64,000 bases of DNA, taken from positions 1-64,000 of the forward strand of contig JAKSKN010000003.1 in assembly GCA_024401695.1 (NCBI GenBank). Direction: 5' to 3'. The translations under genes and the position numbers were made by a program. The notes beneath the pieces were generated by a model. The model searched no databases. It was not told where the DNA came from and saw nothing but the letters and a program-made list of their open reading frames with translations. Shown one piece after another: positions 25,305 to 44,323 of the stretch. Position 1 is the stretch's first letter. Every line of letters starts with the position of its first letter. The DNA comes from Bacteroidales bacterium (GTDB lineage Bacteria > Bacteroidota > Bacteroidia > Bacteroidales > UBA932).

Positions 25305-25775
25305 CTACCAGTTCTTGAACGGGTTCTTCGACAAGTGGGAATTATAATACCGGCGGTCGCCGGTGACTTCTTCGCCAAGCCATTCAGGCTTGGCGAATTT
25401 TTCGTCCTCCGAGCCAAGTTCTATCTCGGCAACGATGAGTCCGTCGTTTTCGCCGTGGAACTCATCAACCTCCCAGATATGGCAGCCATCGGTGTTTTTG
25501 ACAAGGTAGCGCGTCTTGTCGATGATGCCGGGCTCGGCGATATCCAGAAGCTGCAGGGCGTCTTCCACGGGAATTTCCTTTTCCCATTCAAAACGGGAGA
25601 GACCGGCTGCGTCGGACGGGCCTTTTATTGTCAGGAACGCAGTGTCACCCCAGGTGCGCACACGCACGGTCCTGCCCGTTGAGCACAGATAGCCCTGACG
25701 GATGCGTATTTTGTCGTATGCTTCAGGTTTGAAGTCGCCTTTGACCAGGAATTTCCGCTCTATCTCTATCATCAT
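25305..25775 (-). CDS. CYTH-domain protein (triphosphate tunnel metalloenzyme family)
   Basis: A 156-residue single CYTH domain. The signature ExExK is MIEIERKFLV at the N-terminus; other tunnel-lining residues appear in KIRIRQGYL, TVRVRTWGD, FLTIKG, RFEWEKEIP, KTRYLV and WEVDEFHGENDGLIVAEIEL. Family members act on tripolyphosphate, ATP or cAMP-related substrates; in most bacteria the single-domain form is an inorganic triphosphatase. Its start overlaps the stop of the AraC-type gene (ATGA), so the two are cotranscribed and translationally coupled. Confidence 0.88.
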   Translation of the reverse strand: MMIEIERKFLVKGDFKPEAYDKIRIRQGYLCSTGRTVRVRTWGDTAFLTIKGPSDAAGLSRFEWEKEIPVEDALQLLDIAEPGIIDKTRYLVKNTDGCHIWEVDEFHGENDGLIVAEIELGSEDEKFAKPEWLGEEVTGDRRYYNSHLSKNPFKNW

Positions 25776-28174: not shown

Positions 28175-28969
28175 ATGATCATCTTCATCACTGGCATCAC
28201 TTCCGGCTTTGGCAAGGCTATGGCTGAAAGACTTTCTGCTGACGGGCATACCGTTTACGGCACCCACAGGAGCGCCAGAGACTTCATCCCCGGAGTAACA
28301 TACATCAAGGCCGACGCAACTTCCGACGAGGATGTGGAGGCCGCAGTCAAGCAGGTTGTCGATGCGGAAGGACGCATCGACGTGTTCATCAACAACGCAG
28401 GTATGGGCATCGGCGGTCCGCTCGAGTTCACAAGCATTGCCCAGGCGCAGAGGCAGATGGACGTGAACTTCATGGGTATGGTCCGGTTCCTGCACCACGT
28501 AGTTCCTGTAATGAGGAAACAGGGCTTCGGAACGATAATCTGCTTCAGCTCCATCGCCGGAAAGCTTGGGCTGCCGTTCCAGGGCTTCTATTCTGCTTCC
28601 AAGTTCGCGATCGAGGGTTACTGTGACGCGTTGAGGCTCGAAGTCAGGCAATTCGGCATCAAGGTGGTCGTAATCGAGCCCGGCGATTTCGCCACCGGTT
28701 TCACAGGCTCGCGCAAAAAGGTTGAAAGCGAAGAGGCATACGAAGCATACCCATCCTACAAGGCTTCCATCGAAGGTATGGAAAACGATGAAAGGACAGG
28801 GTTGAAACCCGAATATCTTGCGGGTGAGATTTCCAGGATCGTGATGAAGAAGAACCCGAAGTGCAGTTACACCATCGCGACTTTCGTTCAGAAAATGTCC
28901 ATTCCGCTGAGCGTGATTCTCCCGAAGAAGCTCTGGAACAGGATTTTCGCAAGCTGGTACGGGCTCTAG
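28175..28969 (+). CDS. short-chain dehydrogenase/reductase
   Basis: A 264-residue classical-type SDR. The NAD(P)-binding motif is TGITSGFGKAMA at residues 6-17, NNAGMGIGG is near residue 74, the catalytic serine lies in CFSSIAGKLG, the YxxxK pair is YSASK, and the PG segment is IEPGDFATGF. Basic residues after the second strand (GTHRSAR) suggest NADPH preference. The substrate is unknown. Its stop overlaps the convergent LytTR gene by 4 nt. Confidence 0.92.
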   Translation: MIIFITGITSGFGKAMAERLSADGHTVYGTHRSARDFIPGVTYIKADATSDEDVEAAVKQVVDAEGRIDVFINNAGMGIGGPLEFTSIAQAQRQMDVNFMGMVRFLHHVVPVMRKQGFGTIICFSSIAGKLGLPFQGFYSASKFAIEGYCDALRLEVRQFGIKVVVIEPGDFATGFTGSRKKVESEEAYEAYPSYKASIEGMENDERTGLKPEYLAGEISRIVMKKNPKCSYTIATFVQKMSIPLSVILPKKLWNRIFASWYGL

Positions 28970-29667
28970 CGGGCAAGCCAGGCAAGAAAAGCGTCAACCC
29001 TCGAACGGGCGACAACCATATTGAGGCCGAGCGCCGGGTGGACCTCCACCACGTAGCGTCCGGCCTTTTTCTTTGCGCTGTCGATTGCGGACAGCGCCAC
29101 GATGCTTCCTCTGTTGATGCGGAAGAATGCTGCGGGGTCCAGGTCACGCTCAATCGATTCTATCGTGGAGTCGATAAGATATTTGTTGCCGTCGTCGGCA
29201 ACGAGATAATTGCTCTTGTTTTCAGAGAAGAAATAGGCTATCTGCTCCGTCTTGACAGGCACGATGCGGTCGTTGAGGTGTACAATCCATCTCTGCCTGA
29301 AATTCTGCCGCTCCTTGCGCCCCTTGCTGAGGAGATTCATCACGAATTCGAAAGAGAAGCCCAGCACCAGGGTGGTGACAAAGGTGGAAGTGGCATAGAC
29401 CCACACCGTCTCGCCCATCAGCGGGGTCAGCAGTTTCGGGAGGGAATTGCCGGTCAGATATGCCATCACGTTGACGATGATGACAGCCGATATCATGGAG
29501 AAAATCTTCATTTCGCGCCAATAGCACAGAATGAAGATCATTGCGATGGTAAGCAATGTCAGAACGTGCTCATCTGCAACCTTTAACGCTCTGCAGGAGA
29601 TGCAGCAGAAGAAATGGAGGGCCGCAAAGACCAGAATGAGCCAGACGTGAATATTCTTTACTTTCAT
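28966..29667 (-). CDS. membrane-anchored LytTR-domain transcription regulator
   Basis: A 233-residue regulator. Four hydrophobic segments (about residues 6-25, 35-51, 54-72 and 88-112) precede a LytTR DNA-binding domain from about residue 130 (IVHLNDRIVPVKTEQIAYFFSENKSNYL, then FFRINRGSIVALSAIDS). No receiver domain, so it is probably a membrane sensor that binds DNA itself. The ATG at 29667 is chosen: the frame continues upstream to a TTG at 29745, but a promoter box (29692-29699) lies inside that extension and the ATG gives a clean membrane-protein N-terminus. It is divergent from the alpha-glucan utilisation locus and is the nearest regulator to it. Confidence 0.82.
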   Translation of the reverse strand: MKVKNIHVWLILVFAALHFFCCISCRALKVADEHVLTLLTIAMIFILCYWREMKIFSMISAVIIVNVMAYLTGNSLPKLLTPLMGETVWVYATSTFVTTLVLGFSFEFVMNLLSKGRKERQNFRQRWIVHLNDRIVPVKTEQIAYFFSENKSNYLVADDGNKYLIDSTIESIERDLDPAAFFRINRGSIVALSAIDSAKKKAGRYVVEVHPALGLNMVVARSRVDAFLAWLAR

Positions 29668-29691
29668 CAAAAATAGCAGTCGATAACGGTA

Positions 29692-29699
29692 CAAAGTTA
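29692..29699 (-). promoter_or_regulatory. promoter box for the LytTR regulator
   Basis: TAACTTTG on the minus strand fits TAnnTTTG and ends 24 nt before the ATG at 29667. The 21-bp repeat array lies immediately upstream. Confidence 0.55.
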
Positions 29700-29700
29700 G

Positions 29701-29751
29701 CAATTCGTCGCTAAATTCTTCAATTTCGTCATAAAATTCAAGCAATTTGTC
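29701..29751. promoter_or_regulatory. three 21-bp-spaced direct repeats, candidate LytTR operator
   Basis: On the plus strand CAATTCGTC, CAATTTCGTC and CAATTTGTC end at 29709, 29730 and 29751, so the shared GTC recurs at exactly 21 bp (two helical turns); AAATTC also recurs between them. LytTR-domain proteins typically bind two roughly 9-bp direct repeats separated by about 12 bp, i.e. the same 21-bp period. The array sits between the LytTR gene promoter and the start of the alpha-glucan locus. Confidence 0.5.
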
Positions 29752-29818
29752 ACGCGCATATAAATGATATCGTTGATTTGCCTATCTTGCGGCTGTTTCG
29801 AAACACTAGACATTAACC

Positions 29819-31159
29819 ATGGCCAACAACCACAGACTATCTTTTTGGCAGCTCTTCAACCTGAACTTCGGATTCTTCGGAGTGCAGATTGCATACGCCC
29901 TGCAAAGTGCAAACATCAGCCGCATATTCGCAACTCTCGGTGCCGACCCGCATCAGTTGAGTTTCTTCTGGATACTTCCTCCTCTCATGGGAATGATTGT
30001 ACAGCCGCTCATCGGCAAATGGTCCGACAAGACCTGGTGCCGCATGGGCCGCAGAAAGCCCTATCTGCTTGTCGGCGCCATAGTGGCGGTCGCCGTAATG
30101 ATGCTCCTGCCAAACGCCGGCAGCTTCAATCTTGGAAAGGCATACCTTTTCCTCGGTCTCAATGCCGCAATGTGGTTCGGTCTCTTCTCGCTCATCTTCC
30201 TCGACACTTCCATCAACGTGGCAATGCAGCCGTTCAAGATGATGGTCGGCGATATGGTGTGCGAGGAACAGAAGGCGAAGGCATACTCTATCCAGAGCTT
30301 CCTGTGCAATGCAGGCAGCCTCGTCGGATACCTGTTTCCTATATTCTTCACCTGGATCGGCCTGGCCAACACGGCGCCTGAGGGCGTGATTCCGGATTCC
30401 GTGATCTGGAGCTTCTACTGCGGCGCGGCCATCCTTATATTGTGTGTTCTCTTTACATTCTTCAAGGTAAAGGAGATGCCGCCGAAGGAGTATGCCGAAT
30501 TTCACGGGCTCGATGCCTCGGGAACGGCCAAAGAAGATAATCCCGGATTCATCAGGCTCCTCAAGCGCGCCCCGAAGACATTCTGGACGGTCAGCCTCGT
30601 GCAGTTCTTCTGCTGGGCCGCGTTCCTTTTCCTGTGGACATACACCAACGGAGCCATCGCCGAAACCTGCTGGGGAACCACTGATGCCGCCTCGTCAGGC
30701 TACCAGGCCGCAGGCAACTGGGTCGGCGTCCTCTTTGCCGTCGAGGCCATAGGCGCGATGCTGTGGGCCTTTGCCATTCCGCGCTTCAAGACCCTCCGCC
30801 GGGCATACACTGCCAGCCTTATGATAGGAGCCGCGGGGTTCCTGTCAGTGTTCTTCCTGCACAACCAGTATCTCCTGATTGTCAGCTTCCTTCTTATAGG
30901 TGTCGTCTGGGGGGCGATGCTTGCCATTCCGTTCACTTTCGTGACCAACGCCCTTTCCGACCATATCGGGACCTATCTCGGACTGTTCAACTGCGCAATC
31001 TGCCTTCCGCAGATCATTGCCGCCGCTTTTGGAGGACTCATCCTCAACCTGGTTGGCGGAACGCAGGTGAATATGTTCATCGTCGCGGCGGTTCTGCTTG
31101 TCTGCGGCGCATTTGCGACCATTTTCGTGAAAGAACACGAACAATCCATAAATAATTAA
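29819..31159 (+). CDS. inner-membrane sugar transporter (MFS, SLC45/maltose type)
   Basis: A 446-residue polytopic protein with about 12 membrane segments. The N-terminal FWQLFNLNFGFFGVQIAYALQ and the loop between segments 2 and 3 (PLIGKWSDKTWCRMGRRKPYLL) are typical of the SLC45-like/GPH-type transporters found in Bacteroidetes starch loci, where they import maltose or glucose from the periplasm. It is the first gene of the alpha-glucan locus, 22 nt before susC-like, in the place expected for uptake of the products of the periplasmic glucosidases. Confidence 0.88.
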   Translation: MANNHRLSFWQLFNLNFGFFGVQIAYALQSANISRIFATLGADPHQLSFFWILPPLMGMIVQPLIGKWSDKTWCRMGRRKPYLLVGAIVAVAVMMLLPNAGSFNLGKAYLFLGLNAAMWFGLFSLIFLDTSINVAMQPFKMMVGDMVCEEQKAKAYSIQSFLCNAGSLVGYLFPIFFTWIGLANTAPEGVIPDSVIWSFYCGAAILILCVLFTFFKVKEMPPKEYAEFHGLDASGTAKEDNPGFIRLLKRAPKTFWTVSLVQFFCWAAFLFLWTYTNGAIAETCWGTTDAASSGYQAAGNWVGVLFAVEAIGAMLWAFAIPRFKTLRRAYTASLMIGAAGFLSVFFLHNQYLLIVSFLLIGVVWGAMLAIPFTFVTNALSDHIGTYLGLFNCAICLPQIIAAAFGGLILNLVGGTQVNMFIVAAVLLVCGAFATIFVKEHEQSINN

Positions 31160-31181: not shown

Positions 31182-34100
31182 ATGAAAAGAATCCTAACCA
31201 TTCTTGCGGGCATCGTTCTCTCAGCAGCGATGTCTGTAAACGTATCCGCCCAGGGCAGATACGAGGTAAAGGGTACGGTGGCCGACCAGTCGGGACCTGT
31301 CATTGGAGCCACTGTTGCTGAACAGGGCACGACCAATGGCACCGTTACCGGACTCGACGGCGACTATTCACTCCAGGTTTCCTCTGCAGATGCCATCATC
31401 GAAGTCAGCTGCATTGGATATGCCACCGTCACTTACAAGGCATCAGAGATGCCATCCAACATCGTTCTCGCAGAGGATGCAGAATTCCTCGACGAGGTCG
31501 TTGTAATCGGTTATGGTACTGTCAAGAAAAGCGACCTTACAGGCAGCGTGTCTTCCGTCAAGGCAGACCAGTTGAACAAGGGTATCGCCACATCACCAAC
31601 CGACCTGCTTCAGGGCAAGTCAGCCGGTGTCGTCATAACCTCGGGTGATGGCGCTCCGGGCTCAGCCTCCACAATCAGAATCCGCGGCGGCTCTTCACTC
31701 AACGCCTCCAACGACCCTCTCATCATCATCGACGGTCTCCCGGTTTCAAATGACGGCATCAGCGGAACAAGCAACGCCCTCGCCTCCATCAACCCGAGCG
31801 ATATCGAGAATTTCACCGTCCTCAAGGACGCTTCCGCTACCGCAATCTACGGTTCCCGCGCATCCAACGGTGTCATTATGATCACCACCAAAAAGGGACA
31901 GAACAGCGGCAAGGTTCCTCACATCGACGCAGATTTCACGGCCTCCCTGAGTCAGAACGCCAAGTACGTTGACGTCCTGGATGCAGACGGTCTCCGCGAC
32001 CTCGTCGGCAAGATGTACGGACAGGGCAGCGACATCTATACCGGTCTCGGCTCAGCCAACACCAACTGGCAGAAGGAAATCTTCCAGCTTGCCCAGACCT
32101 ATGACGCAAACATCGCGATCTCCGGAAAGGGCGGCAATGACAAATGGAGCCTTCCTTACCGCGTGTCTGTCGGCTTCCTCGACAACAACGGAACCCTGAA
32201 GACCTCCAGGATGAGGCGCGAGACCATCGCATTCAACCTCAATCCTTCCTTCCTCGACAACCATCTCACCGTCAGCCTCAACGGCAAAGGCATGAATATG
32301 GACACCCGCTTCGCAAATACAGGAGCAATCACACAGGCCGTCCAGTATGACCCGACCCGTCCGGTTTATGACGCAAACGGTCTGAACGGCTACAGCTGGT
32401 GGAACTACGGCAAGGGTACCTTCACCGTTGACAACTGCAACACAATGGCAAACCAGAACCCTGTGGCTCTCATCAACGACAAGAAGGACATCAGCAATGC
32501 AAAGCGTTTCCTCGGCAACGTGCAGATCGACTATAAGATTCACGGACTGGAAGACCTTCGCCTCAACCTCAACCTCGGTCTGGACTACACACATTCCAAC
32601 GGAACAGTGGACGTGGCTCCTGACACCGAGCAGAGTATGCACTCAACCAACCAGCAGGCCAACAACCACGCTTCCGGTTATCATACGAATTACAACCAGA
32701 CCAAGATCGACCAGACTCTCGAACTCTACGCCGACTACAGCCACACCTGGGCCGAGAAGCACAACTTCGAGGCTATGGCAGGTTATAGCTGGCAGCACTT
32801 CTACAGCGAATCATTCAATGAGACCTACAAGGCCGACAGCACCCCTAAGACAGACGCAAGCTATTATCTCAGCAGCCCTGTCACGAACAAGGGCGAACTG
32901 TTCCTCGTCTCATTCTTCGGCCGTCTGAACTACAACTACGACAACCGCTATCTCCTCACGGCGACCTTCCGCGCTGACGGTACATCCCGCTTTGCAAACA
33001 ACAAATGGGGTCTGTTCCCTTCATTCGCATTCGGTTGGAACGTAAAGAATGAGGAATTCCTGAAGTATTCCAATTCTGTCTCAACCCTGAAGCTGCGTCT
33101 GTCATACGGTCAGACCGGCCAGCAGGATCTTGGCAGCGGTTACTATCCGACCCTCGCCACCTATGTCTATAACACCAACGCCTGTATGTATCCTTTCGGA
33201 GCCGGCTTCGTACAGCCGATTACGGCAAAGGGTTACAACGCCGACCTCAAGTGGGAGACCACCATCACATGGAACGCAGGTATCGACTACGGCTTCCTCG
33301 GCGACAGAATCTTCGGTAGCATCGACTTCTACAAGCGTTTCACCAAGGATCTCCTCAACTACACCCCGGTTGCTGCGGGCGCAAACCTCTCCAACTACCT
33401 GAACGCCAACATCGGTGACCTTGAGAACACCGGTGTCGAGTTCGAAATCAATGCCATTCCTGTCCAGACCCGCGACTGGTCCTGGACCATCGGCTTCAAC
33501 GCCGCCTGGAACAAGACCCTCATCACCCGCCTCACCAACGAGGATGAAAGCGCAAATTACCACGGAGTTGATACCGGCGGCATCAGCGGCGGTACCGGAA
33601 ACACCGTCCAGGTACACCAGACCGGCCAGGCACCTAACTCGTTCTTCGTTTACCAGCAGGTCTATGACACCGCAGGCAATCCTATCGAAGGTGTCTATGT
33701 AGACCGCAACGCTGACGGTGTCATCAACACCAACGACAAATACTGCTTCCACAAGGCTGCTCCGGACTGGACCTTCGGCTTCAACACCAAGGTTTCATAC
33801 AAGGCCCTCACCCTTGCGATGAACGCGCACGCCAACGTAGGCAATTATGTCTATAACAATGTGATGAGCAACGGTGACCTCCTTACGGACCTCAGCACCA
33901 ACAGCTTCATCAACAACCGTTACACAACCGCAGAAAAGCACAACTTCCAGAACTTCGCGCAGTACTGGTCAGACATGTATGTCACCGACGCTTCTTTCCT
34001 GAAGATCGACAACATCACTCTCAGCTACTGCTTCAAGCTCGCTGAAGTTGCCGGACGCGATATGAATCTCAACGTATTCGGAACGGTACAGAATGTCGCC

Positions 34101-34208
34101 ACCATCACGGGATACAAGGGTATCGACCCTGAAATCTTCTCCGGCATCGACAACAATATGTATCCTAGACCACGCACCTATATCCTCGGTGTGAAGTTCA
34201 ATTTCTAA
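31182..34208 (+). CDS. SusC/RagA-type TonB-dependent outer-membrane transporter
   Basis: A 1008-residue SusC-family transporter. A signal peptide ends at NVSAQ; a carboxypeptidase-regulatory-like domain follows (EVKGTVADQSGPVIGATVAEQGTTNG-type sequence); the TonB-box region is EVVVIGYGTVKKSDLTGSV; the plug contains DLLQGKSAGVVITSGDGAPGS and PLIIIDGLPVS, AIYGSRASNGVIMITTKKG; the rest is a 22-strand barrel ending in the aromatic strand YILGVKFNF. It imports oligosaccharides captured by its SusD lid at the cost of proton-motive force via TonB. Here the substrate is inferred to be maltooligosaccharides from the neighbouring enzymes. Confidence 0.97.
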   Translation: MKRILTILAGIVLSAAMSVNVSAQGRYEVKGTVADQSGPVIGATVAEQGTTNGTVTGLDGDYSLQVSSADAIIEVSCIGYATVTYKASEMPSNIVLAEDAEFLDEVVVIGYGTVKKSDLTGSVSSVKADQLNKGIATSPTDLLQGKSAGVVITSGDGAPGSASTIRIRGGSSLNASNDPLIIIDGLPVSNDGISGTSNALASINPSDIENFTVLKDASATAIYGSRASNGVIMITTKKGQNSGKVPHIDADFTASLSQNAKYVDVLDADGLRDLVGKMYGQGSDIYTGLGSANTNWQKEIFQLAQTYDANIAISGKGGNDKWSLPYRVSVGFLDNNGTLKTSRMRRETIAFNLNPSFLDNHLTVSLNGKGMNMDTRFANTGAITQAVQYDPTRPVYDANGLNGYSWWNYGKGTFTVDNCNTMANQNPVALINDKKDISNAKRFLGNVQIDYKIHGLEDLRLNLNLGLDYTHSNGTVDVAPDTEQSMHSTNQQANNHASGYHTNYNQTKIDQTLELYADYSHTWAEKHNFEAMAGYSWQHFYSESFNETYKADSTPKTDASYYLSSPVTNKGELFLVSFFGRLNYNYDNRYLLTATFRADGTSRFANNKWGLFPSFAFGWNVKNEEFLKYSNSVSTLKLRLSYGQTGQQDLGSGYYPTLATYVYNTNACMYPFGAGFVQPITAKGYNADLKWETTITWNAGIDYGFLGDRIFGSIDFYKRFTKDLLNYTPVAAGANLSNYLNANIGDLENTGVEFEINAIPVQTRDWSWTIGFNAAWNKTLITRLTNEDESANYHGVDTGGISGGTGNTVQVHQTGQAPNSFFVYQQVYDTAGNPIEGVYVDRNADGVINTNDKYCFHKAAPDWTFGFNTKVSYKALTLAMNAHANVGNYVYNNVMSNGDLLTDLSTNSFINNRYTTAEKHNFQNFAQYWSDMYVTDASFLKIDNITLSYCFKLAEVAGRDMNLNVFGTVQNVATITGYKGIDPEIFSGIDNNMYPRPRTYILGVKFNF

Positions 34209-34225
34209 TTTAACACTATAGAGAT

Positions 34226-35821
34226 ATGAAAAAGATTAATTTTATAGCATCAGCACTCGCGGCAGTAATTGTTGCAGGCTTCACATCCTCTTGTGTTAAA
34301 GACCTCGACGTTACTCCTATCGACCCGAATACCGTACTTCCTGAAGACGTCCTCAATTCAGACGAGGCCTTCGGCCAGTTCCTCGCAAAATGTTATCAGG
34401 GCCTCTGCTCATCAAGTTCATACGGTGAGAACGGCGGTCCGGACATCGACGGCGTGGACGGCGGTTATGGCCAGTATTTCCGTGCAGTCGTAAACCTTCA
34501 GGAGCTCACTACAGACGTAATGACCTGCTGCTGGAACGACGGTACCCTCTTCGATCTGCACAACCTCTGCTGGAACTCTTCCAATGAGTTCGTGTTCAGT
34601 ATGTATATGCGTATATTCTTCCAGATCAGCCAGTGCAACGAATTCATCCGCAGGTCAAACAACTCCACAATCAACGGTTATGACCACAAGGAGCAGTACA
34701 TTGCAGAGGCTCGCGCCCTCAGGCTCCTCAGCTACTATCACGCCATCGATATGTTCGGCAACGTTCCGTTCTCGACAGAAGAAGACAGCGTGGGCTCAAA
34801 TCCTCCTCAGCAGAAAATGCGCGGCGACCTCTTCGACTGGATGGTTGAAGAAGCCAAGGACCTCATCGACAACGCTTCTCTCCGCTCACCGGGTGCTGCC
34901 GAGTACGGCCGCGCCGACAAGGGCCTCGTGATGATGATTCTCGCCAAGCTTTACCTCAACGCAGAAGTCTGGAAAGGCCAGGCAATGTATAAGGAATGTG
35001 CAGAGGTCTGCGACGGTCTCATACCGTTCTATGCTCTCCACGAGAATTACAAGGACCTCTTCTGCGCCGACAACCATCTGTGCACAAGCAACTCTACCTT
35101 CTTTGGAGACGAGATTATCTTCGTCGCACCTCAGGACGGCAACCAGCTGCACTCTTACGGCTCAACCAACTTCCTTGTTTTCGCCAGCACGTTCTCCGTC
35201 ACCGGAAAGCCGGAAAAGACTATGGACGTTGCCCAGGTGGGTATTTCTTCAGGTTGGTCAGGCCTCAGCCTCACCGGCGCTTTCACAAGCAAGTTCGAGG
35301 AGAACGATGCTCGCGCAATGTTCTTCAAGGGCGGCTTCAGCCAGTACATCAGCGAGCTGCGTGATGCCGACGGCGCATCAGAAGGTTGGAAATCAATGAA
35401 ATTCTCCAACATCAACCACGACGGCAGCGCCGCTCAGGCTCAGGGTTTCGTGGACACCGACTTCCCTGTATTCCGCTTCGCCGACGTCCTCCTGATGTAT
35501 GCTGAATGCGCAGCCCGCAATGCGGCCAACGCTTCAGACGGACAGAGCTACTTTGACGAAGTCCGCGAACGTGCAGGCCTCGGCCATCTCGCCCTCACTC
35601 TTGAAAATGTCATCGATGAGCGCGGACGCGAACTCTATCTGGAAGGATTCCGCCGCCAGGACCTTATCCGCTTCGGTCTCTTTACAACCGACAAGTACCT
35701 TTGGGAATTCAAGGGCGGCGCCAAGGATGGAACCGCGGTTGACAGCAAATTCAACCTCTTCTCCATCCCTTCAGCCGACCTCAACTCAAATGGCAACCTC
35801 AAACAGAACCCAGGTTATTAG
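34226..35821 (+). CDS. SusD/RagB-type surface glycan-binding lipoprotein
   Basis: A 531-residue lipoprotein (lipobox TSSC near residue 23). The SusD fold is shown by the TPR-rich N-terminal half, including QYIAEARALRLLSYYHAIDMFGNVPF and ADKGLVMMILAKLYLNAEVW, and by the C-terminal FRFADVLLMYAECAAR, YFDEVRERAGL and DERGRELYLEGFRRQDLIRFG. It closes over the SusC barrel and binds the incoming oligosaccharide. It starts 17 nt after susC-like. Confidence 0.96.
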   Translation: MKKINFIASALAAVIVAGFTSSCVKDLDVTPIDPNTVLPEDVLNSDEAFGQFLAKCYQGLCSSSSYGENGGPDIDGVDGGYGQYFRAVVNLQELTTDVMTCCWNDGTLFDLHNLCWNSSNEFVFSMYMRIFFQISQCNEFIRRSNNSTINGYDHKEQYIAEARALRLLSYYHAIDMFGNVPFSTEEDSVGSNPPQQKMRGDLFDWMVEEAKDLIDNASLRSPGAAEYGRADKGLVMMILAKLYLNAEVWKGQAMYKECAEVCDGLIPFYALHENYKDLFCADNHLCTSNSTFFGDEIIFVAPQDGNQLHSYGSTNFLVFASTFSVTGKPEKTMDVAQVGISSGWSGLSLTGAFTSKFEENDARAMFFKGGFSQYISELRDADGASEGWKSMKFSNINHDGSAAQAQGFVDTDFPVFRFADVLLMYAECAARNAANASDGQSYFDEVRERAGLGHLALTLENVIDERGRELYLEGFRRQDLIRFGLFTTDKYLWEFKGGAKDGTAVDSKFNLFSIPSADLNSNGNLKQNPGY

Positions 35822-35830
35822 CAGAAGAAT

Positions 35831-38401
35831 ATGAAAAAGATATTTATAACATCTCTCTTAGCTCTTGCAGGGCTGTTCGCGACATCCTGTGTCCAGGAGC
35901 ATATCGATGTTATCTACGATCCTGCAAACGTGACGGTGCAGACCCTCGGCGAATTCGCCGGAGGTGCACTGTCAGAGGACGGATCGCCTATAACAGCACA
36001 GTATAACGCAGCGAACTTCAATGTCACCGTTCCCGTTTCCTATACCCTGTTCGTGAATGCGGAAGGCGCGGATTTCGAGAATGCAAAGAAGGTCGATGCT
36101 ACCATCGGTGACGGCAAGATTTCCATCGAACAGCCGAAGCTCAACAAGCTCCTCGGCAACCTCGGCGCCACGCCGAACGAGGAATTCGCCGTTGAATTCA
36201 GACTTGACGCCTTCATCATGAACGAGAAAGGCGCTGTCGAGAGCACCAGGAAGAGCTCCAATCTCGTAAGAGCCGTTTACACTCCTTACGAGACCGAGAA
36301 GGTCCTCGACGTCTGCGACGTTCCTGGCGACTACCAGGGCTGGGCGCCTTCAGATTACCCGAAGCTCTTCAACTATTCCGGCGACGGCACCATCTACCGC
36401 GGCGTCATCGACTTCCAGTGCAAGAACGAAAGCGGCAGTGCAGCCAACGGCTTCAAGATCACCTACGGCGGCAACTGGGATAACGACTCAGGCAACTGGG
36501 GAAGCGCAAGCCAGGGCGAAGCTGCCGAAGCTGCAAGCGTACAGCTCATCAACGGCGACGGATCACAGAACATCATCTGCTACGGCGAGAAGAGATACTA
36601 TCTGTTCTCATTCAACAAGGATCAGCTTGTCCTGACAAAGCTCATGTCATTCGACAAGGTCGGAGTAATCGGTCTCAACGGAGACTGGGACAACGATATC
36701 GAGATGACCTACAATATGTACAAGGGACGCTTCTGGGCTGATGTTGACGCAGCATCCGCAACAGAATTCAAGTTCCGTCTCGACGGTGCCTGGGACAACA
36801 ACTGGGGCGGCAGCCTCGACAATCTCGCAGGCGGTGGCGACAACATCGCCATCGAGGCCGGTCAGTACCGTATATACTTCTATATGAATGACGAAGTGCT
36901 CACTGCAACTGTCGACGCTACAATGTACGGACAGGAAGAGCCTACCATCGACGAGCCGGAGCCGGAGCCAGTCACATACGAGGGCTGGGGCATCATCGGC
37001 GACTTCAATGAGTGGGCAACCGACGTGGAAATGACCGAGAAGGACGGCGTCTGGACAGGTTACTTCAATGTCGCTGCAGACCAGGGCTGGAAACTCCGCA
37101 AGGATGCCGGCTGGGATGAGAATGTCGGCGGAACATTCACCGCGTTCGGCACCCCGTTCGAGGCCGTTGCCGGAGGTGACAACATCGTCATCGGACAGGA
37201 CGGCTTCTTCAAGGTTGTCTATGACACCAATGCGGGTACCATCACCGTTTCCGAAGGCAATGTATGGTCAATCATTGGCGACTTCAACGAATGGGCCGGC
37301 GATATTGATATGGAAGAAGTTGACGGAAAGTGGATTGCACGCGACATAGCTCTCTCCGGTGGATGGAAGCTCCGCTATAACCACGGCTGGGATGAAAACC
37401 GCGGCGGTACCTTCGAGGCTCTCGGAACACCGTTTGCCGTAACGAACGGCGGTGACAACATCAACTGCGGCGAAGGCAAGTTCGTCATCACCTACGACCC
37501 TGCGGCAGAGACTCTCCTTGTAGAGAATTCAATGCCGTCAGATACCTGGAGTCTCATCGGCGTGAACGGCGACTGGGAGAACGACATCTGGATGACCGAG
37601 ATACGTCCGGGAGTCTGGGCGAGCCCGAAGACTGCCATCAACGGCGAATTCAAGATCCGTTTCAACCACGACTGGGCGGTTAACCGCGGAGGCGAAGACC
37701 TCACAGTCGGAACCGTGAGCGAAGCTGTTCCGGATGGTCGGAACATCAACGTTGCGGACGGCAGCTACATCGTCATCTATGACGCCAATGAAGAGATCAT
37801 TTATCTTCAGGGCTGGTCACTCATCGGAACGATCGACGGCACCAGCTGGGATGCCGACATCCCTATGATCCCTACCCAGACAAGCGAGGGATCTTCCGAT
37901 ATCGTGTGGATGAGCTACGTTTTCAAGACTGACGCCGCCTGCGAATTCAAGGCCAGGTTCGACGCCAACTGGGACGTGAACCGCGGAGGAACCTTCACGG
38001 ATTTCTGCGAGCCGTTCGACGTAACGAACAATGGTGACAATATCGCCCTCCCTGATGCCGGCTACTACTTTGCAATCTACTACCCGGCCCTTGAAAAGAT
38101 GGGTGTGGGCCGTGCAGACTGGGGCGTAATCGGCGGTTTCAACGATTGGAACGGTGATGTCGTGATGCTTGAAAGCGAGTCCAAGGGCATTTATACTGCA
38201 TTCGTCAGCTTTGCCGAGGATACCGAATTCAAGATCCGTCAGAACCGTGCCTGGAATAATGACCGCGGAGGCACCCTGGGCGCTCTCGGCACAGCATTCA
38301 CTGCCGAAGCCGGAGGTGCCAACATCCAGTGCGCTGCAGGTAATTACCTGATCACCTATGATTCCAATGCCGAGACCATTACGGTCACAGCCGACGAATA
38401 A
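35831..38401 (+). CDS. SusE/SusF-like surface protein with about seven starch-binding-type repeats
   Basis: An 856-residue lipoprotein (lipobox ATSC). After an N-terminal SusE-type Ig-like domain (about residues 25-155), one diverged and six clear repeats follow. Each clear repeat has the form W-x-I-I-G-D-F-N-E-W near its start, a K-x-R aromatic strand, W-D-x-N-x-G-G-T and a final G-G-D-N-I; starts lie near residues 275, 383, 476, 570, 660 and 755. SusE has two such starch-binding domains and SusF three, so this protein has roughly twice as many. It should act as a long multivalent surface tether for starch. It lies 9 nt after the susD-like gene and is followed by a terminator. Confidence 0.85.
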   Translation: MKKIFITSLLALAGLFATSCVQEHIDVIYDPANVTVQTLGEFAGGALSEDGSPITAQYNAANFNVTVPVSYTLFVNAEGADFENAKKVDATIGDGKISIEQPKLNKLLGNLGATPNEEFAVEFRLDAFIMNEKGAVESTRKSSNLVRAVYTPYETEKVLDVCDVPGDYQGWAPSDYPKLFNYSGDGTIYRGVIDFQCKNESGSAANGFKITYGGNWDNDSGNWGSASQGEAAEAASVQLINGDGSQNIICYGEKRYYLFSFNKDQLVLTKLMSFDKVGVIGLNGDWDNDIEMTYNMYKGRFWADVDAASATEFKFRLDGAWDNNWGGSLDNLAGGGDNIAIEAGQYRIYFYMNDEVLTATVDATMYGQEEPTIDEPEPEPVTYEGWGIIGDFNEWATDVEMTEKDGVWTGYFNVAADQGWKLRKDAGWDENVGGTFTAFGTPFEAVAGGDNIVIGQDGFFKVVYDTNAGTITVSEGNVWSIIGDFNEWAGDIDMEEVDGKWIARDIALSGGWKLRYNHGWDENRGGTFEALGTPFAVTNGGDNINCGEGKFVITYDPAAETLLVENSMPSDTWSLIGVNGDWENDIWMTEIRPGVWASPKTAINGEFKIRFNHDWAVNRGGEDLTVGTVSEAVPDGRNINVADGSYIVIYDANEEIIYLQGWSLIGTIDGTSWDADIPMIPTQTSEGSSDIVWMSYVFKTDAACEFKARFDANWDVNRGGTFTDFCEPFDVTNNGDNIALPDAGYYFAIYYPALEKMGVGRADWGVIGGFNDWNGDVVMLESESKGIYTAFVSFAEDTEFKIRQNRAWNNDRGGTLGALGTAFTAEAGGANIQCAAGNYLITYDSNAETITVTADE

Positions 38402-38414
38402 TTCACGATAAAGT

Positions 38415-38452
38415 AAGCGCCGGTGTGGATCTGCCCTGCCGGCGCTTCTTTT
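38415..38452 (+). terminator. terminator after the SusE/F-like gene
   Basis: AAGCGCCGG (38415-38423) and CCGGCGCTT (38439-38447) form a perfect 9-bp stem followed by CTTTTT. It separates the binding/transport genes from the enzymes, so it probably lowers expression of the enzymes relative to SusCDE unless a second promoter lies in the remaining 17 nt (only TATCTTTA, one mismatch to the box, is seen). Confidence 0.8.
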
Positions 38453-38469
38453 TCATTATCTTTATGACC

Positions 38470-40416
38470 ATGAAAAGATTCCCTCTGATCTTCCTCACCC
38501 TGGCCGTCCTGCTGGCCGGATGTAAAACCAATGAACCCGACAGACCGGATCCGGTGAAGCCGGACCCCGTTGACCCCGTCAAGCCGTCGCGTACAGGTGA
38601 ATCAGGCATCAGCTACCAGCTCCTGGTTTATTCGTTCTGCGACTCGGACGGTGACGGAACCGGCGACTTCAAGGGAATCGAAAGCAAACTTGATTATCTC
38701 AAGGAGATGGGGGTGCAGGCCGTATGGCTCTCGCCTGTCCATCCTGCAACATCCTACCACGGTTATGACGTGGAGGACTACAGCGCAGTCAACCCCGCCT
38801 ACGGCACGGAGGCGGATTTCGAGGCAATGCTCAAGGCAGCGCATTCGAAAGGCATCAAGGTTTATCTTGATTTCGTGCTCAACCACTCATCAAAAGAACA
38901 CCCGTGGTTCATCCAGGGTAAAGCCGACCCGGACAGCAGGTACCGCGGTTACTACCATTTCTCCACCACAGCAAAATCCGGGTATTCCCAGACCGTTTCG
39001 GGAACGGACCCGGGGAAGATCAACGTCAAGTTCACCCTCAAGTGCAACTCTTCCGGCACTCCGCAGACACTGAAGGCCGAAAGGGTGGAGAGCGCCGCCA
39101 ACGACGGGACACCAGGCTCCGGGAAATACCTCTGGTATGGTTCCGTGACCGAAAGCACTATGCCGGAATTCTATTCTGCCGGCAATGACACATACACCCT
39201 TGCTGTCGAGGGTTTCGAAACATCCTGGGGCGTGCTCGTACGCACCAGCAAGACAGAATGGGGCACCAGAAAGTTCGGTGCCGCCTCCACGAACGCCCAG
39301 ACTCTGGTCTGGGGCGTTCCGCTCAATCTGAAATCGAATTCCGACTACGACATCCTGATGCCCTGGATGGGCAGTATCTGGTATCAGTCCGTATTCGGCT
39401 CATATATGCCCGACCTCAACTACGGCCCGGCTGCAAGCTGCGAGGACTCCGAGGCCTTCAAGGATGTCTGCGCCGCTGCCGACAAATGGATAATGATGGG
39501 CGTCGACGGATTCCGTCTTGACGCTGTCAAGCATATCTATGACAACGAGAATTCCGACGAGAACCCGACCTTCCTGAAGAAATTCTACGACCACTGCAAT
39601 GCCACATACAAGGCCGCAGGCCACTCCGGCAACATATATATGGTCGGCGAACAGTGGAACGAGCCTAACTACGTCACGCCTTATTACAAGGGCCTCAACG
39701 CGTTCTTCGAATTCGCCTTCTGCTGGCGTCTGACCGAAGCAATAAACGGATCGAAGGGGGCCGGCTTCGCCGCCACCATTGATGGTTACCACAAAAAGTA
39801 TACTGCAACGCGCTCCGATGCCATAGCCGCGACAAAGCTCTCCAACCACGACGAGGACCGCATTGCCTCCACGCTGGGCCGGAACACCGGCAAATTGAAG
39901 CTCGCGGCGGCAGTGCTCCTGACATCTGGAGGCGAACCATACATCTATCAGGGCGAGGAACTGGGTTACTGGGGGACAAAAGCCAACGGCGACGTGTATG
40001 TGCGTACACCGATAATGTGGACAAAAGATGCTGGCAGCGCAGCTTCAGCAGCGCTTGACGGCAATGTGGACAAGAATATGCTGACGCCGGACATCTCTGT
40101 CGAAGCCCAGGCGGCCGACCAGAATTCAATGCTTGCCCTGTATCGCAGCTTCGGCCTGCTGCGGGACTGCTACCCGGCTCTCGCCAAAGGAAGCTTTGAG
40201 GAAAAGACCGGACTCAGCAACAGTGCCATCGGCGCCTGGTATCGCGAATACAACGGACAGAAGATACTCGTGGTTCACAATTTTTCCGCTGCAACTGTCT
40301 CTTTCAGCCCGTCCGGAGACAAGCTTTCAGCCATGATAGGCTCAAACGGAAGCGCGACGGTAAAGAACGGTAACTTGACCCTCGGAGGGTACGCCTCCGC
40401 GCTTTTCCTACAATAG
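38470..40416 (+). CDS. SusG-like GH13 alpha-amylase lipoprotein
   Basis: A 648-residue surface amylase. Lipobox LLAGC is followed by a Pro/Asp-rich linker of repeated PDPV units. GH13 regions are complete: DFVLNHSS (I), DGFRLDAVKH (II, nucleophile), VGEQWNEPNY (III, acid/base) and LSNHDEDR (IV). An insertion at about residues 177-285 in domain B sits where SusG carries its CBM58, but contains GVLVRTSKTEWGTRKFG and no obvious CBM58 motif. A C-terminal beta domain follows. It should cut starch at the cell surface for uptake by SusC/D. Start: ATG at 38470 gives the shortest standard lipoprotein signal; ATG at 38464 is also possible. Confidence 0.93.
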   Translation: MKRFPLIFLTLAVLLAGCKTNEPDRPDPVKPDPVDPVKPSRTGESGISYQLLVYSFCDSDGDGTGDFKGIESKLDYLKEMGVQAVWLSPVHPATSYHGYDVEDYSAVNPAYGTEADFEAMLKAAHSKGIKVYLDFVLNHSSKEHPWFIQGKADPDSRYRGYYHFSTTAKSGYSQTVSGTDPGKINVKFTLKCNSSGTPQTLKAERVESAANDGTPGSGKYLWYGSVTESTMPEFYSAGNDTYTLAVEGFETSWGVLVRTSKTEWGTRKFGAASTNAQTLVWGVPLNLKSNSDYDILMPWMGSIWYQSVFGSYMPDLNYGPAASCEDSEAFKDVCAAADKWIMMGVDGFRLDAVKHIYDNENSDENPTFLKKFYDHCNATYKAAGHSGNIYMVGEQWNEPNYVTPYYKGLNAFFEFAFCWRLTEAINGSKGAGFAATIDGYHKKYTATRSDAIAATKLSNHDEDRIASTLGRNTGKLKLAAAVLLTSGGEPYIYQGEELGYWGTKANGDVYVRTPIMWTKDAGSAASAALDGNVDKNMLTPDISVEAQAADQNSMLALYRSFGLLRDCYPALAKGSFEEKTGLSNSAIGAWYREYNGQKILVVHNFSAATVSFSPSGDKLSAMIGSNGSATVKNGNLTLGGYASALFLQ

Positions 40417-40422
40417 TACAAT

Positions 40423-41487
40423 ATGAACAGATTCCTTTTATTTGCAGCTGTGCTGCTTTCGCTGTCCGCCTGCCAGACAAAGAAGGATACGGAGCCTAAG
40501 ACGGATCCGGAACCGCCTGTAAAGACCTTCTTCGCCAAAGGCGCGGATCTCGGCTGGGTGACCGAAATGGAAAGCAGGGGGTACAGGTTTTATTCGCCGC
40601 AGGGCGTTGAGATGGAATGCACGGAGCTGCTGCACGGAATCGGCTTCAACGCCGTCCGTCATCGCGTGTGGGTGGATCCCGCCGACGGCTGGTGCAACAA
40701 GGAGGATGTCCTGGTCAAGTGCAAGCGCGCGCAGGCGCTGGGAATGAAGATAATGATTGACTTCCATTACGGTGACAGCTGGTGCGACCCGGGCAAGCAG
40801 CCTGTTCCGGCTGCCTGGAAGGGGCATAACGCCGACCAGCTTGCCAAAGACGTTTCCGGCCATACGGAGGAGGTGCTCTCCCTTCTGAAAAGCAACGGCA
40901 TCGATGTCGCCTGGGTGCAGGTGGGCAACGAAGTGACCAACGGAATGTTGTGGGAGACCTGCCGCGTCAAGGGCTCTGAAGCGGGAAATTTCATCAAGGT
41001 ATTCAATGCTGGAGCTGCAGCGGCCAGAAAAGTTTATCCTGAGACCACCATCATCCTCCATATCGCCAACGGCTGGGAGCCGGACACCGTCCAATGGTAT
41101 TTCGACCTCGTGGGCGGCAAGGCGGATTACGATATGATGGGATTTTCACTCTACCCAGCCTATTGGGACAACTCCATCGGCGGATATCCGGACTGGAAAC
41201 CCAAGACACAGTGCTTTGTGGACAATCTCGGCGCTTTCCATACAAAGTATAAGAAGCCGATCATGCTCTGCGAGTTCGGAATGCCGGCAACACAGCCGGA
41301 ACAGTCAAAGGCCGCTCTCCAATTCCTTCTCGACAACACAAAAGACAAAGAATATTTTATGGGCATCTTCCTTTGGGAGCCTGAATCAGAGCCTTCACGC
41401 AATGGCTATGACCAGGGCGCATTCTCAAACGGAACCCCGACACTGGCACTCTCTCCTTTCAACGATTCAATAGCATCAAATGAATAG
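40423..41487 (+). CDS. GH53 endo-beta-1,4-galactanase lipoprotein
   Basis: A 354-residue lipoprotein (lipobox LSAC). GH53 hallmarks: FFAKGADLGWVTEMESRG, NAVRHRVWVDPADGWCNKEDVL, IMIDFHYGDSWCDPGKQ, the acid/base Glu in VQVGNEVTNGM near residue 169, and the nucleophile Glu in MLCEFGMP near residue 283. GH53 enzymes cut beta-1,4-galactan side chains of pectin. It lies between amylase genes, 6 nt after the SusG-like gene and overlapping the next gene by 8 nt, so it is part of the same transcript although its known substrate is not starch. Confidence 0.93.
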   Translation: MNRFLLFAAVLLSLSACQTKKDTEPKTDPEPPVKTFFAKGADLGWVTEMESRGYRFYSPQGVEMECTELLHGIGFNAVRHRVWVDPADGWCNKEDVLVKCKRAQALGMKIMIDFHYGDSWCDPGKQPVPAAWKGHNADQLAKDVSGHTEEVLSLLKSNGIDVAWVQVGNEVTNGMLWETCRVKGSEAGNFIKVFNAGAAAARKVYPETTIILHIANGWEPDTVQWYFDLVGGKADYDMMGFSLYPAYWDNSIGGYPDWKPKTQCFVDNLGAFHTKYKKPIMLCEFGMPATQPEQSKAALQFLLDNTKDKEYFMGIFLWEPESEPSRNGYDQGAFSNGTPTLALSPFNDSIASNE

Positions 41488-44323
41488 AATAGCATTAGCA
41501 CTCGCCGCGGTCCTGGCATTGGCCGGCTGCGCGCAAAAAGAACAGACCGTCAAGACCGCCGACTGGAGCAAATCCGTCGTGTACGAGTTCAACACACGCC
41601 AGTACACCCCCGAAGGGACATTTGCGGCAGCGGCCGAACAGCTGCCCCGCCTGAAAGAGCTGGGCGTGGACATCGTGTGGGTAATGCCACTTTATCCTAT
41701 CGGAGAGAAGGAGCGCAAGGGTTCGCTCGGTTCGTACTACTCAATCAGGGATTACTGCAACGTCAACCCTGAATTCGGCACCCTTGCCGATTTTGACGCA
41801 TTCGTCGCGAAGGCTCACAAGTGTGGCCTGAAGGTCATCATCGACTGGGTCGCCAACCATACCTCCCCGGACCACCCGTGGGTGACTGAAAAGCCGGCGG
41901 ACTGGTATGTGCGCGACGCCGAAGGCAACACCATCGTCGAATACGACTGGACCGACATAGCGAAACTCAATTTTGACAATGCGGACATGCGCAAGGCGAT
42001 GCAGGAAGCGATGCTGTTCTGGCTTGACCGCGGCATCGACGGATTCCGCTGCGACGTGGCATATCAGGTGCCGCAGGATTTCTGGACGCCGACCATCGCG
42101 ATGCTGCGCGAGCACGCGGACAAGCCGCTCTATTTCCTCGCGGAGGGCGAGGAAGCCTGGCTTCACGAAGCCGGTTTCGATGCAACCTACGCCTGGAAAT
42201 TCCACCATCTCCTGAATGACATCGCACAGGGGAAAGCGGGAGAGAAGGAGCTCGAAGAATACTACAAATGGAATGAGGAAACCTTCCCCGAAGGCGCCTT
42301 GAGGCTTGTTTTCACTTCAAACCACGACGAAAATTCCTGGTCCGGCACCGAATTCGAACGTATGGGTGACAAGTGGCAGGAGATGACGGCGCTCTGCTTC
42401 TCGCATCCTGGCGGACAGCCTCTTCTCTACACCGCACAGGAAATAGGTTACGACCATAGGTTCCAGTTCTTCGAAAAAGACCCCGTGCCTGCGTGGGAGG
42501 AGAATTCCACCACCCTTTTCTACAAGCAGCTGATCGACAGCTTCCACAAGCAGCCTGTCAGGCATATCGAGCCTCTCTGCTGGTGGGTTGGGATGAAAAC
42601 TCCGCTTCAGCTTATGATCAACGGCACTGAAATCGGAAGCTACGATGTCACCATCAGCGGGGGCAAGGGTGTCACCGTCACAGACACCCACAAGGCCGAA
42701 AGCCCGAACTACATCTTCGTCGACGTCGCCATTGCGGCGAATGCCGCTCCCGGCACATATATGCTGGAATTCAGCCGCGACGGCAGCAGCTTCAGCATCC
42801 CTTACGAAATCGGCGCCCGCCGCGAAGGTTCCGCCACACGCCGGAGCTTCAGCACTTCGGATATGATTTACCTCATTATGCCGGACCGCTTCGCAAATGC
42901 AGACCCCACCAACGACAACACCTTCGACACGCTCGAAGATGCCGACTATGAGGCCTTCTTCGGCCGTCACGGCGGCGATCTGCAGGGCATTGTCGACCGC
43001 CTCGACTATATCGCCGACCTGGGCGCCACAGCCATCTGGCTGAACCCGGCTCTCGAAGACAACGAGCCGGAATCAAGCTACCACGGCTATGCCTGCACGG
43101 ATTATTACAAGATAGACTCCCGCTTCGGCGGCAATGACAAATACCGCGAATTCGTGAATGAATGCCACGCCCACGGCATCAAGGTCATAATGGACATCGT
43201 CACCAACCACGCGGGCGACAGGCACTGGTGGATGAAGGACCTCCCGTTTGCCGACTGGATCCACCAGTGGCCGGACTATACCCACTCGAACTGCGCCTTC
43301 TCCGCACAGAACGACCCTTACTGCTCGGCTCTTGACAGCAAGAACATGCAGGAGGGATGGTTCGACACCTCGATGGTGGATATGAACCTCGACAACCCTT
43401 ATCTGCTTCAGTATTTCAAGCAGTGGGCGGCCTGGTGGATAGAGTGGGCCGATCTGGACGGCTTCCGCGTGGATACCTATCCTTACAACGAAAAATATCC
43501 TATGTCGGAATGGTGCAAGGCCGTCCGCGAGGAATACCCCAACTTCAACATCGTCGGCGAAGTATGGTCGAACAATGTTCCGCAGGTTGCTTACTGGCAG
43601 GCCGGGAACCCCAACAGGGACGGTTTCAACTCCAATCTTCCGACCGTTATGGACTTCTGCCTCCAGTCCGCGATGTGCAACAGCTTCAATACTCCGTATG
43701 AAAACTGGGACGAAGGAATAACCAAGGTTTACGACAGCATTGCAAATGACGTTTATCTCTATGACGTCGAGAACCTTATGGTGTTCTCAAGCAATCACGA
43801 CCAGGACCGTATCGCGGACATCTTCGGAGAAGACCCGCGGAAGGTCAAGCTTGTGATGACGCTTGTGGGTACAGTACGCGGCATCCCTCAGATCTACACC
43901 GGCGACGAACTTCTGCAGACTTCCCGCGACCGCAGCCAGGGCCACGGCGGCCTGCGGCGCGAATTCCCGGACAACTGGTCGGAGAACGCGGCCGCAAAGG
44001 ACGTCCACGACTTCACGCGCGCACTCTTCCAGTGGCGCAAGGGCTCCGATGCCGTACAGCACGGAAAGACCCTCCATTTCCTCTCAAGACAGAACACATA
44101 CGCATATTTCCGATACACAGGCAGCGACGCTGTGTTTGTATTCCTCAACAACAACGTTGACCCGGTCAGGATCCCTTGGGCCGACTATGCGGAATTCACG
44201 GAATCGCATCCCGGTGAATGGAGAAACGTGATTACTGGAGAAATCGTAGAAACTGATAACCTTACAATAAATGAAAAGAGCAGCATTATTCTTGAGCTTT
44301 GCCCTTCTGGCAGCGTGCAATAG
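41480..44323 (+). CDS. double GH13 fusion: alpha-amylase-like domain joined to a SusA-like neopullulanase
   Basis: A 947-residue lipoprotein (lipobox LAGC). The first GH13 barrel spans about residues 30-355: DWVANHTS, DGFRCDVAY, LAEGEEAW and TSNHDENSW. It has no C-terminal beta domain of its own and runs straight into a SusA-type N-terminal beta domain starting near residue 362 (IEPLCWWVGMKTPLQLMING), then a second complete GH13 barrel: MIYLIMPDRFAN, DIVTNHAG, DGFRVDTYPY, IVGEVWSN and SSNHDQDR, and a C-terminal domain. SusA alone is about 617 residues. It should degrade imported maltooligosaccharides in the periplasm, with two active sites in one chain. Its last 53 nt overlap the GH97 gene. 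Confidence 0.9.
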   Translation: MNRIALALAAVLALAGCAQKEQTVKTADWSKSVVYEFNTRQYTPEGTFAAAAEQLPRLKELGVDIVWVMPLYPIGEKERKGSLGSYYSIRDYCNVNPEFGTLADFDAFVAKAHKCGLKVIIDWVANHTSPDHPWVTEKPADWYVRDAEGNTIVEYDWTDIAKLNFDNADMRKAMQEAMLFWLDRGIDGFRCDVAYQVPQDFWTPTIAMLREHADKPLYFLAEGEEAWLHEAGFDATYAWKFHHLLNDIAQGKAGEKELEEYYKWNEETFPEGALRLVFTSNHDENSWSGTEFERMGDKWQEMTALCFSHPGGQPLLYTAQEIGYDHRFQFFEKDPVPAWEENSTTLFYKQLIDSFHKQPVRHIEPLCWWVGMKTPLQLMINGTEIGSYDVTISGGKGVTVTDTHKAESPNYIFVDVAIAANAAPGTYMLEFSRDGSSFSIPYEIGARREGSATRRSFSTSDMIYLIMPDRFANADPTNDNTFDTLEDADYEAFFGRHGGDLQGIVDRLDYIADLGATAIWLNPALEDNEPESSYHGYACTDYYKIDSRFGGNDKYREFVNECHAHGIKVIMDIVTNHAGDRHWWMKDLPFADWIHQWPDYTHSNCAFSAQNDPYCSALDSKNMQEGWFDTSMVDMNLDNPYLLQYFKQWAAWWIEWADLDGFRVDTYPYNEKYPMSEWCKAVREEYPNFNIVGEVWSNNVPQVAYWQAGNPNRDGFNSNLPTVMDFCLQSAMCNSFNTPYENWDEGITKVYDSIANDVYLYDVENLMVFSSNHDQDRIADIFGEDPRKVKLVMTLVGTVRGIPQIYTGDELLQTSRDRSQGHGGLRREFPDNWSENAAAKDVHDFTRALFQWRKGSDAVQHGKTLHFLSRQNTYAYFRYTGSDAVFVFLNNNVDPVRIPWADYAEFTESHPGEWRNVITGEIVETDNLTINEKSSIILELCPSGSVQ

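Follow-up and report, generated by a model that had tools for sequence, protein, structure and literature searches.

We have analysed the intergenic region between a gene for a membrane-bound LytTR regulator and a starch utilization (Sus)-type alpha-glucan operon in a 64,000-nucleotide (nt) stretch of DNA from a Bacteroidales bacterium of the lineage UBA932 (assembly GCA_024401695.1, contig JAKSKN010000003.1, positions 1 to 64,000), the whole of which is referred to here as the window. The region contains an array of three direct repeats, which comparison with related genomes suggests to be the operator of the regulator, a protein that itself looks like a reduced two-component system. The array is flanked by the minus-strand LytTR gene, whose ATG is at 29667 and whose start in the list of open reading frames (ORFs) is a TTG at 29745, and by the plus-strand transporter gene with its ATG at 29819. 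The three repeats and their exact 21-base pair (bp) spacing, reported in an earlier note on this DNA, are confirmed by direct reading, with GTC ends at 29709, 29730 and 29751. The regulator side of the locus and the array consist of the following features.

28175..28969, plus strand: short-chain dehydrogenase, the convergent neighbour of the regulator gene and the far edge of the reduced locus
28966..29667, minus strand: membrane-bound LytTR regulator of 233 amino acids (aa), four predicted transmembrane helices and a C-terminal LytTR domain
29692..29699, minus strand: candidate -7 box of the LytTR gene (TAACTTTG), which fits the Bacteroidales TAnnTTTG and lies within the pattern match at 29692-29730
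29701..29709, minus strand: repeat nearest the regulator promoter, CAATTCGTC as read directly and GACGAATTG in minus-strand letters
29721..29730, minus strand: middle repeat, CAATTTCGTC as read directly and GACGAAATTG in minus-strand letters
29743..29751, minus strand: repeat nearest the transporter promoter, CAATTTGTC as read directly and GACAAATTG in minus-strand letters
29783..29790, plus strand: candidate -7 box of the transporter-Sus operon (TATCTTGC), which departs from TAnnTTTG at two positions and lies 31 nt from the nearest repeat

The divergent operon begins with a transporter of the major facilitator superfamily (MFS) and continues through genes for Sus-like proteins and enzymes of several glycoside hydrolase (GH) families, some with carbohydrate-binding modules (CBM), separated by gaps of 6-23 bp or overlapping.

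29819..31159, plus strand: MFS sugar transporter, operon gene 1 (Pfam MFS_1, E 2.6e-25; NCBIfam GPH_sucrose, E 1.9e-21, below cut-off)
31182..34208, plus strand: SusC-like TonB-dependent transporter, after a gap of 22 bp
34226..35821, plus strand: SusD-like protein, after a gap of 17 bp
35831..38401, plus strand: SusE-like protein with a CBM48-like region, after a gap of 9 bp
38425..40416, plus strand: SusG-type alpha-amylase with CBM58, after a gap of 23 bp
40423..41487, plus strand: GH53 protein, after a gap of 6 bp
41480..44323, plus strand: GH13 cyclomaltodextrinase-like protein, overlapping the GH53 gene
44271..46448, plus strand: GH97 glycosidase, overlapping the GH13 gene
46461..48314, plus strand: GH77 4-alpha-glucanotransferase, likely the last operon gene, after a gap of 12 bp

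GH53 enzymes are usually endo-galactanases, and this is the only member of the operon that does not look like alpha-glucan work. Its position inside the otherwise alpha-glucan operon is shared by the window and four relatives (L047, L048, L049 and L050).

The regulator belongs to the LytTR family by its match to PF04397 (Pfam E 1.7e-14, 54.2 bits against a cut-off of 22.6), and the structure model predicts transmembrane helices at residues 6-27, 33-50, 55-84 and 88-116 (block confidence 81-95 over most). The membrane helices are modelled well, most of the LytTR part has a predicted local distance difference test score (pLDDT) below 50, and no claim made here rests on the LytTR fold. Pfam detected no kinase or receiver domain in the window protein, and no kinase or receiver match was found at the window locus. 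The protein therefore lacks the histidine kinase and receiver of a canonical two-component system, which are present at 60 congeneric loci, and it is not a hybrid two-component system with kinase, receiver and DNA-binding domain in one chain, its 233 residues comprising the helices and the LytTR domain only. It has the form of a one-component transmembrane transcription regulator, membrane insertion being predicted. No membrane inhibitor partner of the kind that defines the two-gene operons of LytTR regulatory systems (LRS) accompanies it, its neighbours being the divergent transporter gene and the convergent dehydrogenase gene, which overlaps it by 4 bp.

On the strand of the LytTR gene the repeats share the motif GAYGAATT, and their arrangement, direct repeats of about 9 bp with spacers of about 12 bp close to a target promoter (9 + 12 = 21 bp), is that of LytTR-family sites. 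A loose two-box pattern allowing up to two mismatches has 2 matches in the 64 kb, both within the array, and two or more matches were obtained in 25 of 100 shuffles. The stricter pair pattern RAYRRATT-N11-14-GAYGAAWT, shaped on the window array and its orthologs, has a single match across the 2.65-Mb genome, the array itself, and none in the reversed control; no second match that would point to a wider regulon exists elsewhere in the genome, a search that covered the exact pattern and not looser sites. Judged on the window alone the repeats are thus modest evidence for an operator, and the convincing evidence is comparative.

Searching 400 congeneric genomes at E <= 1e-40 recovered 6 orthologs of the regulator, the window's included, and 299 genomes of the family, searched with a profile, yielded another 5 in a sister genus, for a total of 11 in two genera. 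Transporter and SusC genes are divergent from the regulator in all 11 orthologous loci, and all 11 retain three repeats. Spacing between the middle and regulator-proximal repeats is invariant at 21 bp (11/11); from the transporter-proximal to the middle repeat it is 21 bp in 4 loci and 22 bp in 7. Across the 11 orthologs, repeats 2 and 3 have a mean column identity of 93% and the -7 box one of 90%; the value is 66% for the spacer that separates the two repeats and 48% immediately downstream of the box. These figures come from an alignment block that was anchored on the motif itself; unanchored alignments give the same conserved columns. In each ortholog the regulator-proximal GAYGAATT ends two bases before a TAnnTTTR box, which places this repeat inside the regulator promoter. 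The combination of two boxes with TAnnTTTR occurs in 6 of the 400 congeneric genomes, exactly those that encode a LytTR ortholog, and has no control match; the pattern was shaped on these six, where it matches by construction, and the informative part is its absence from the other 394.

The same array is observed beside a different form of regulator. In many congeners the window protein has two neighbouring matches, its membrane part in a longer protein and its LytTR part in a protein of ∼255 residues. The transporter gene was located in 91 of 151 congeners (E <= 1e-120), and the upstream region was taken for 89 of them, without G042 and G091, in which the transporter match lies at a contig end. 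At 60 of the 89 loci the divergent neighbour is a two-component system, with matches to membrane, kinase, receiver and LytTR parts; 8 loci have one ORF that combines a membrane with a LytTR part, 1 has a bare LytTR domain, 17 have no LytTR and 3 fall outside these classes. Kinase, receiver and membrane matches are present at all 60 two-component loci; neither a kinase nor a receiver match was found at the 8 one-ORF loci. The two-component example that was scanned comprises His_kinase PF06580 and a Response_reg-LytTR protein.

Arrays were scored by a rule requiring the core GAY(G/A)AA with at most one mismatch per pair, boxes 20-22 bp apart and a position within 260 bp of the transporter start. 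For the comparison by LytTR neighbour, G056 (short contig), G025 (other orientation) and G095 (LytTR farther away) were set aside, all three having a one-mismatch pair. Array pairs are present at 63 of 69 LytTR-adjacent loci and at 1 of 17 without LytTR (Fisher p = 1.2e-11), and exact GAYGAA pairs at 51/69 and 1/17 (p = 2.9e-7), p-values that overstate independence because the loci share descent. Exact boxes are paired at 21 bp 77 times and at 42 bp 27 times, with at most 4 pairs at any other spacing between 8 and 59 bp. On the opposite strand the exact pairs are absent (0/69) and one-mismatch pairs occur at 3 of 69 loci; dinucleotide resampling under the one-mismatch rule gives a mean of 4.15 of 69. 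In a second set of loci, collected through the kinase and scored with the rule unchanged, the array is present in 20 of 22 (15 with exact boxes), one from another genus, and 12 of the 22 lie beside a transporter only 36-42% identical to that of the window. This set derives from 52 places, of which 30 had loci, after omission of 7 from genomes already used and of L223, which has no transporter match. By the one-mismatch rule three repeats are found in 8 of 8 one-ORF loci and in 36 of 60 two-component loci, a tally over related loci; tethered regulators may need more sites.

The position of the array relative to the transporter promoter is also conserved. A TAnnTTTG box with at most one mismatch is found 15-70 nt from 63 of 66 arrays, the window being counted through another box at 16 nt, and of these 63 arrays, 47 are separated from the transporter -7 box by 31-33 nt and 8 by 42-44 nt. 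The earlier note had proposed that the repeats are a LytTR operator through which the regulator controls the alpha-glucan locus and itself. The operator and the control of the locus gain from the comparison: presence of the array tracks an adjacent LytTR system in both sets of loci, as expected of an operator, and the geometry fits activation of the transporter-Sus promoter, a judgement drawn from sequence. In 24 of 51 loci, by raw count, a CGCG element separates the transporter-proximal repeat from the -7 box; in the window it is at 29752-29757, odd in an A+T-rich intergenic region, and it is possibly the site of a second factor.

Going beyond the earlier note, the comparison indicates an apparent reduction, by which the regulator would derive from a two-component system, and an array that predates this reduction. 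The window protein matches congeneric two-component systems in two parts, the N-terminus of the kinase and the C-terminus of the regulator. From the 3' end of the dehydrogenase gene to the transporter start the distance is 2015-2079 bp in the 8 two-component loci where the dehydrogenase was found, and 852 bp in the window; because of this difference, the window protein looks like the outcome of a loss of ∼1.2 kb that joined a kinase N-terminus to a regulator C-terminus. A tree of the regulators (79 rows; membrane and LytTR columns), in which the one-ORF group had been defined by domain content before tree building, resolves the 17 one-ORF forms into three clades with good support, that of the window (11 rows), G045/G085/G121 and G051/G054/G057. 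A single origin of the 17 is rejected at a cost of 38.7 log units (p-AU, the approximately unbiased test, 0.000255). Whether the reductions were separate is somewhat uncertain in view of long branches (G109, G030, G009 and others) and possible gene transfer. Homology, synteny and tree are observed; the direction of change is inferred, the two-component form being taken as ancestral because it is the common form and because kinase and receiver are homologous across loci. As the two-component loci carry the same operator, the array would be older than the reduction. It is likely, in our estimation, that within this one gut-bacterial genus at least three independent reductions have led to a phosphate-free membrane-tethered regulator with operator, geometry and starch operon unchanged. 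The bare LytTR domain of G089 (L139 514-864; 116 aa), which stands apart from all three one-ORF clades in the tree, lies beside the transporter without membrane, kinase or receiver part and with two repeats kept, a further reduction.

Combined, these results suggest, with a good degree of confidence for a case built on comparison of genomes, that the array is a LytTR operator, at which a membrane-tethered regulator, reduced from a two-component system, would activate the transporter-Sus operon and perhaps repress its own gene. In the reduction an ancestral histidine kinase would have contributed its membrane domain and its response regulator the LytTR domain, with kinase and receiver lost and operator and target kept. 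The four-helix membrane domain presumably still senses its signal and would act directly on the LytTR domain, not through phosphate. Three sites, recurring every two helical turns on one face of the DNA, would be occupied by LytTR copies, and the bound LytTR may act as an activator of the divergent transporter-Sus-amylase operon, whose -7 box is 31 nt from the end of the nearest site. Activation is proposed because this distance is near that of the LRS-like operons of Bacteroides. Self-repression is suggested because, in all orthologs, a repeat ends two bases before the regulator -7 box; the regulator-proximal site fills the space just before that box, and its occupancy could repress the regulator, the weakest part of the scheme.

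To the shared descent of the loci must be added several further observations that weigh against this interpretation. The motif GAYGAATT differs from the published LytTR consensus, which, like the Bacteroidales promoter consensus, was used for orientation. The array rule was formed after viewing loci of the first set; the second set applied it unchanged to other genomes. One-mismatch pairs on the regulator strand are also common at 8-13 and 29-34 bp, occurring at 27-33 of 69 loci. By the rule, 6 of the 60 two-component loci and 2 of the 22 in the second set (G386 and G394) have no array, and at G135 an array is present although the 3.3 kb examined contain no LytTR gene. The window's own transporter -7 box is poor, the distance from the array to the regulator-side -7 box varies outside the window's clade, and the rarity of TTTG at -33 of the transporter promoter is no sign of activation, since this element does not discriminate, being present in 3 of 51 array loci and also in no more than 1 of 17 loci without LytTR. 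Two of these observations have possible explanations of their own. The raised pair counts at 8-13 and 29-34 bp suggest a weaker half-site on the intermediate helical turn. The G135 genome encodes four close receiver-LytTR homologs (E <= 1.7e-54), two of them on the same contig ∼22-24 kb away, which perhaps act in trans.

Other explanations of the repeats must be considered. Since 21 bp is also seven codons, they could encode heptads (DKLLEFYDEIEEFSDELL) in a TTG-started N-terminal extension of the LytTR protein, a caveat raised in the earlier note. The frame is indeed open through the repeats in the window and in three further orthologs (L038, L039 and L041), and in 17 of 62 array-bearing two-component and one-ORF loci, including the one-ORF loci G085 and G121, where the repeats are in phase. 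This alternative fails because in 7 of the 11 orthologs stops interrupt the frame on the way from the repeats to the membrane domain; the wider set agrees, the frame being stopped in 45 of the 62 loci. The repeats moreover fall in all three phases in the orthologs (23, 16 and 23 loci per phase in the wider set), and the spacing between the first two repeats is 22 bp in 7 of 11 orthologs. The contrast to which the earlier note had looked, repeats conserved and reading frame not, is therefore borne out, its caveat falls, and on these alignments the heptad reading is a coincidence of an open frame, with hardly any probability left to a coding function. Alternatively, a regulator of another kind, for example of the AraC or SusR type, could control the same operon through the array. 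Direct repeats also serve SusR-like and hybrid two-component regulators (PMC3878776), and a protein with an AraC-like C-terminal region is encoded at 25772-26917, every match being below cut-off. However, the array follows the LytTR gene across loci in which the transporter is present in both groups, and its period and placement fit LytTR sites, so that control by another regulator is improbable. A SusR-type site in particular is ruled out on spacing, the motifs of the SusR regulon being 67 or 77 bp apart (PMC3878776) and those of the array 21 bp.

If the array is bound by the LytTR regulator, its effect might nonetheless be other than proposed. By analogy with the membrane LytTR protein CoxC, for which three direct repeats spaced at 18-21 bp mediate repression (PMC11347149), the regulator could be a repressor of the transporter-Sus operon that is relieved by a signal. 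The CoxC sites overlap the -35 box, whereas the array mostly ends 31-33 nt before the transporter -7 box, where activators sit, and the LRS-like repeats of Bacteroides, 34 bp before the -7 box, are presumed to be activating by their authors (PMC6193735). Repression is accordingly unlikely. The array could also serve the regulator gene only, in autoregulation, without the Sus operon as a target. This would suit the repeat placed immediately before the regulator -7 box in 11 of 11 members of the window's clade, but the box at near-fixed distance across the genus is that of the transporter and not that of the regulator, which makes autoregulation alone a very improbable account. The reading we prefer remains activation of the transporter-Sus operon by the tethered LytTR regulator.

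Several known systems resemble parts of this arrangement. CoxC of Afipia carboxidovorans, an MHYT-LytTR membrane regulator that acts as a repressor by binding three repeats, likewise combines a membrane domain with a C-terminal LytTR domain and has three direct repeats at 18-21 bp close to its target operon (PMC11347149). It differs from the window protein in its sensor, a seven-helix MHYT domain answering CO, and in repeats that overlap the -35 box and confer repression; a two-component ancestor is unmentioned in the part of that source available. LRS, and especially the LRS-like operons of Bacteroides, provide a membrane-spanning LytTR regulator within Bacteroidia, with 11-bp repeats and an 11-bp spacer (a 22-bp period) located 34 bp before a TATCTTTG box (11 + 4 + 19 = 34 bp from repeats to -7 box in the LRS-like operons); the same paper cites sources for the Bacteroidales promoter consensus (PMC6193735). 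Unlike the window locus, LRS pair the regulator with a membrane partner in a two-gene operon, the partner being NfeD/DUF2154 in Bacteroides (PMC6193735). Repeats of an LRS would also stand directly ahead of the regulator's own promoter and act in positive feedback; in the window's clade one repeat is inside that promoter, where feedback may be of either sign. In the window there is no partner gene, the target is a sugar operon on the other strand and the repeat sequence differs. SusR and the hybrid two-component systems of Bacteroides share with the window the control of polysaccharide operons and the use of direct-repeat motifs, but they belong to different protein families, and SusR has a wide repeat spacing and a periplasmic sensor (PMC3878776). 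LytS/LytR-type two-component systems have His_kinase PF06580 and Response_reg-LytTR, as does the scanned example of the common form at this locus, and the window protein has neither the kinase nor the receiver.

The titles and abstract openings returned by a literature search name no LytTR system controlling a Sus operon in Bacteroidota; the present results suggest that Sus-type starch operons of Bacteroidales are among the targets of LytTR systems, and they provide a concrete operator sequence. If the reduction occurred as proposed, the four-helix membrane domain would be sufficient by itself as a sensor and could be coupled to a kinase or to a DNA-binding domain alike, and the loci would form a natural series of how transmembrane transcription factors arise. 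A possible two-component origin of membrane transcription regulators has been raised previously, the Rsp chimera of Neisseria consisting of the membrane part of PilS and the DNA-binding part of PilR (PMC10269533). The window protein is like Rsp in that a DNA-binding domain is tethered to the membrane domain of a former kinase (PMC10269533). It differs in that sister species here have either the two-component or the reduced form at one and the same locus, share operator and target, and show apparently at least three separate reductions; this co-occurrence makes the question of a two-component origin directly testable.
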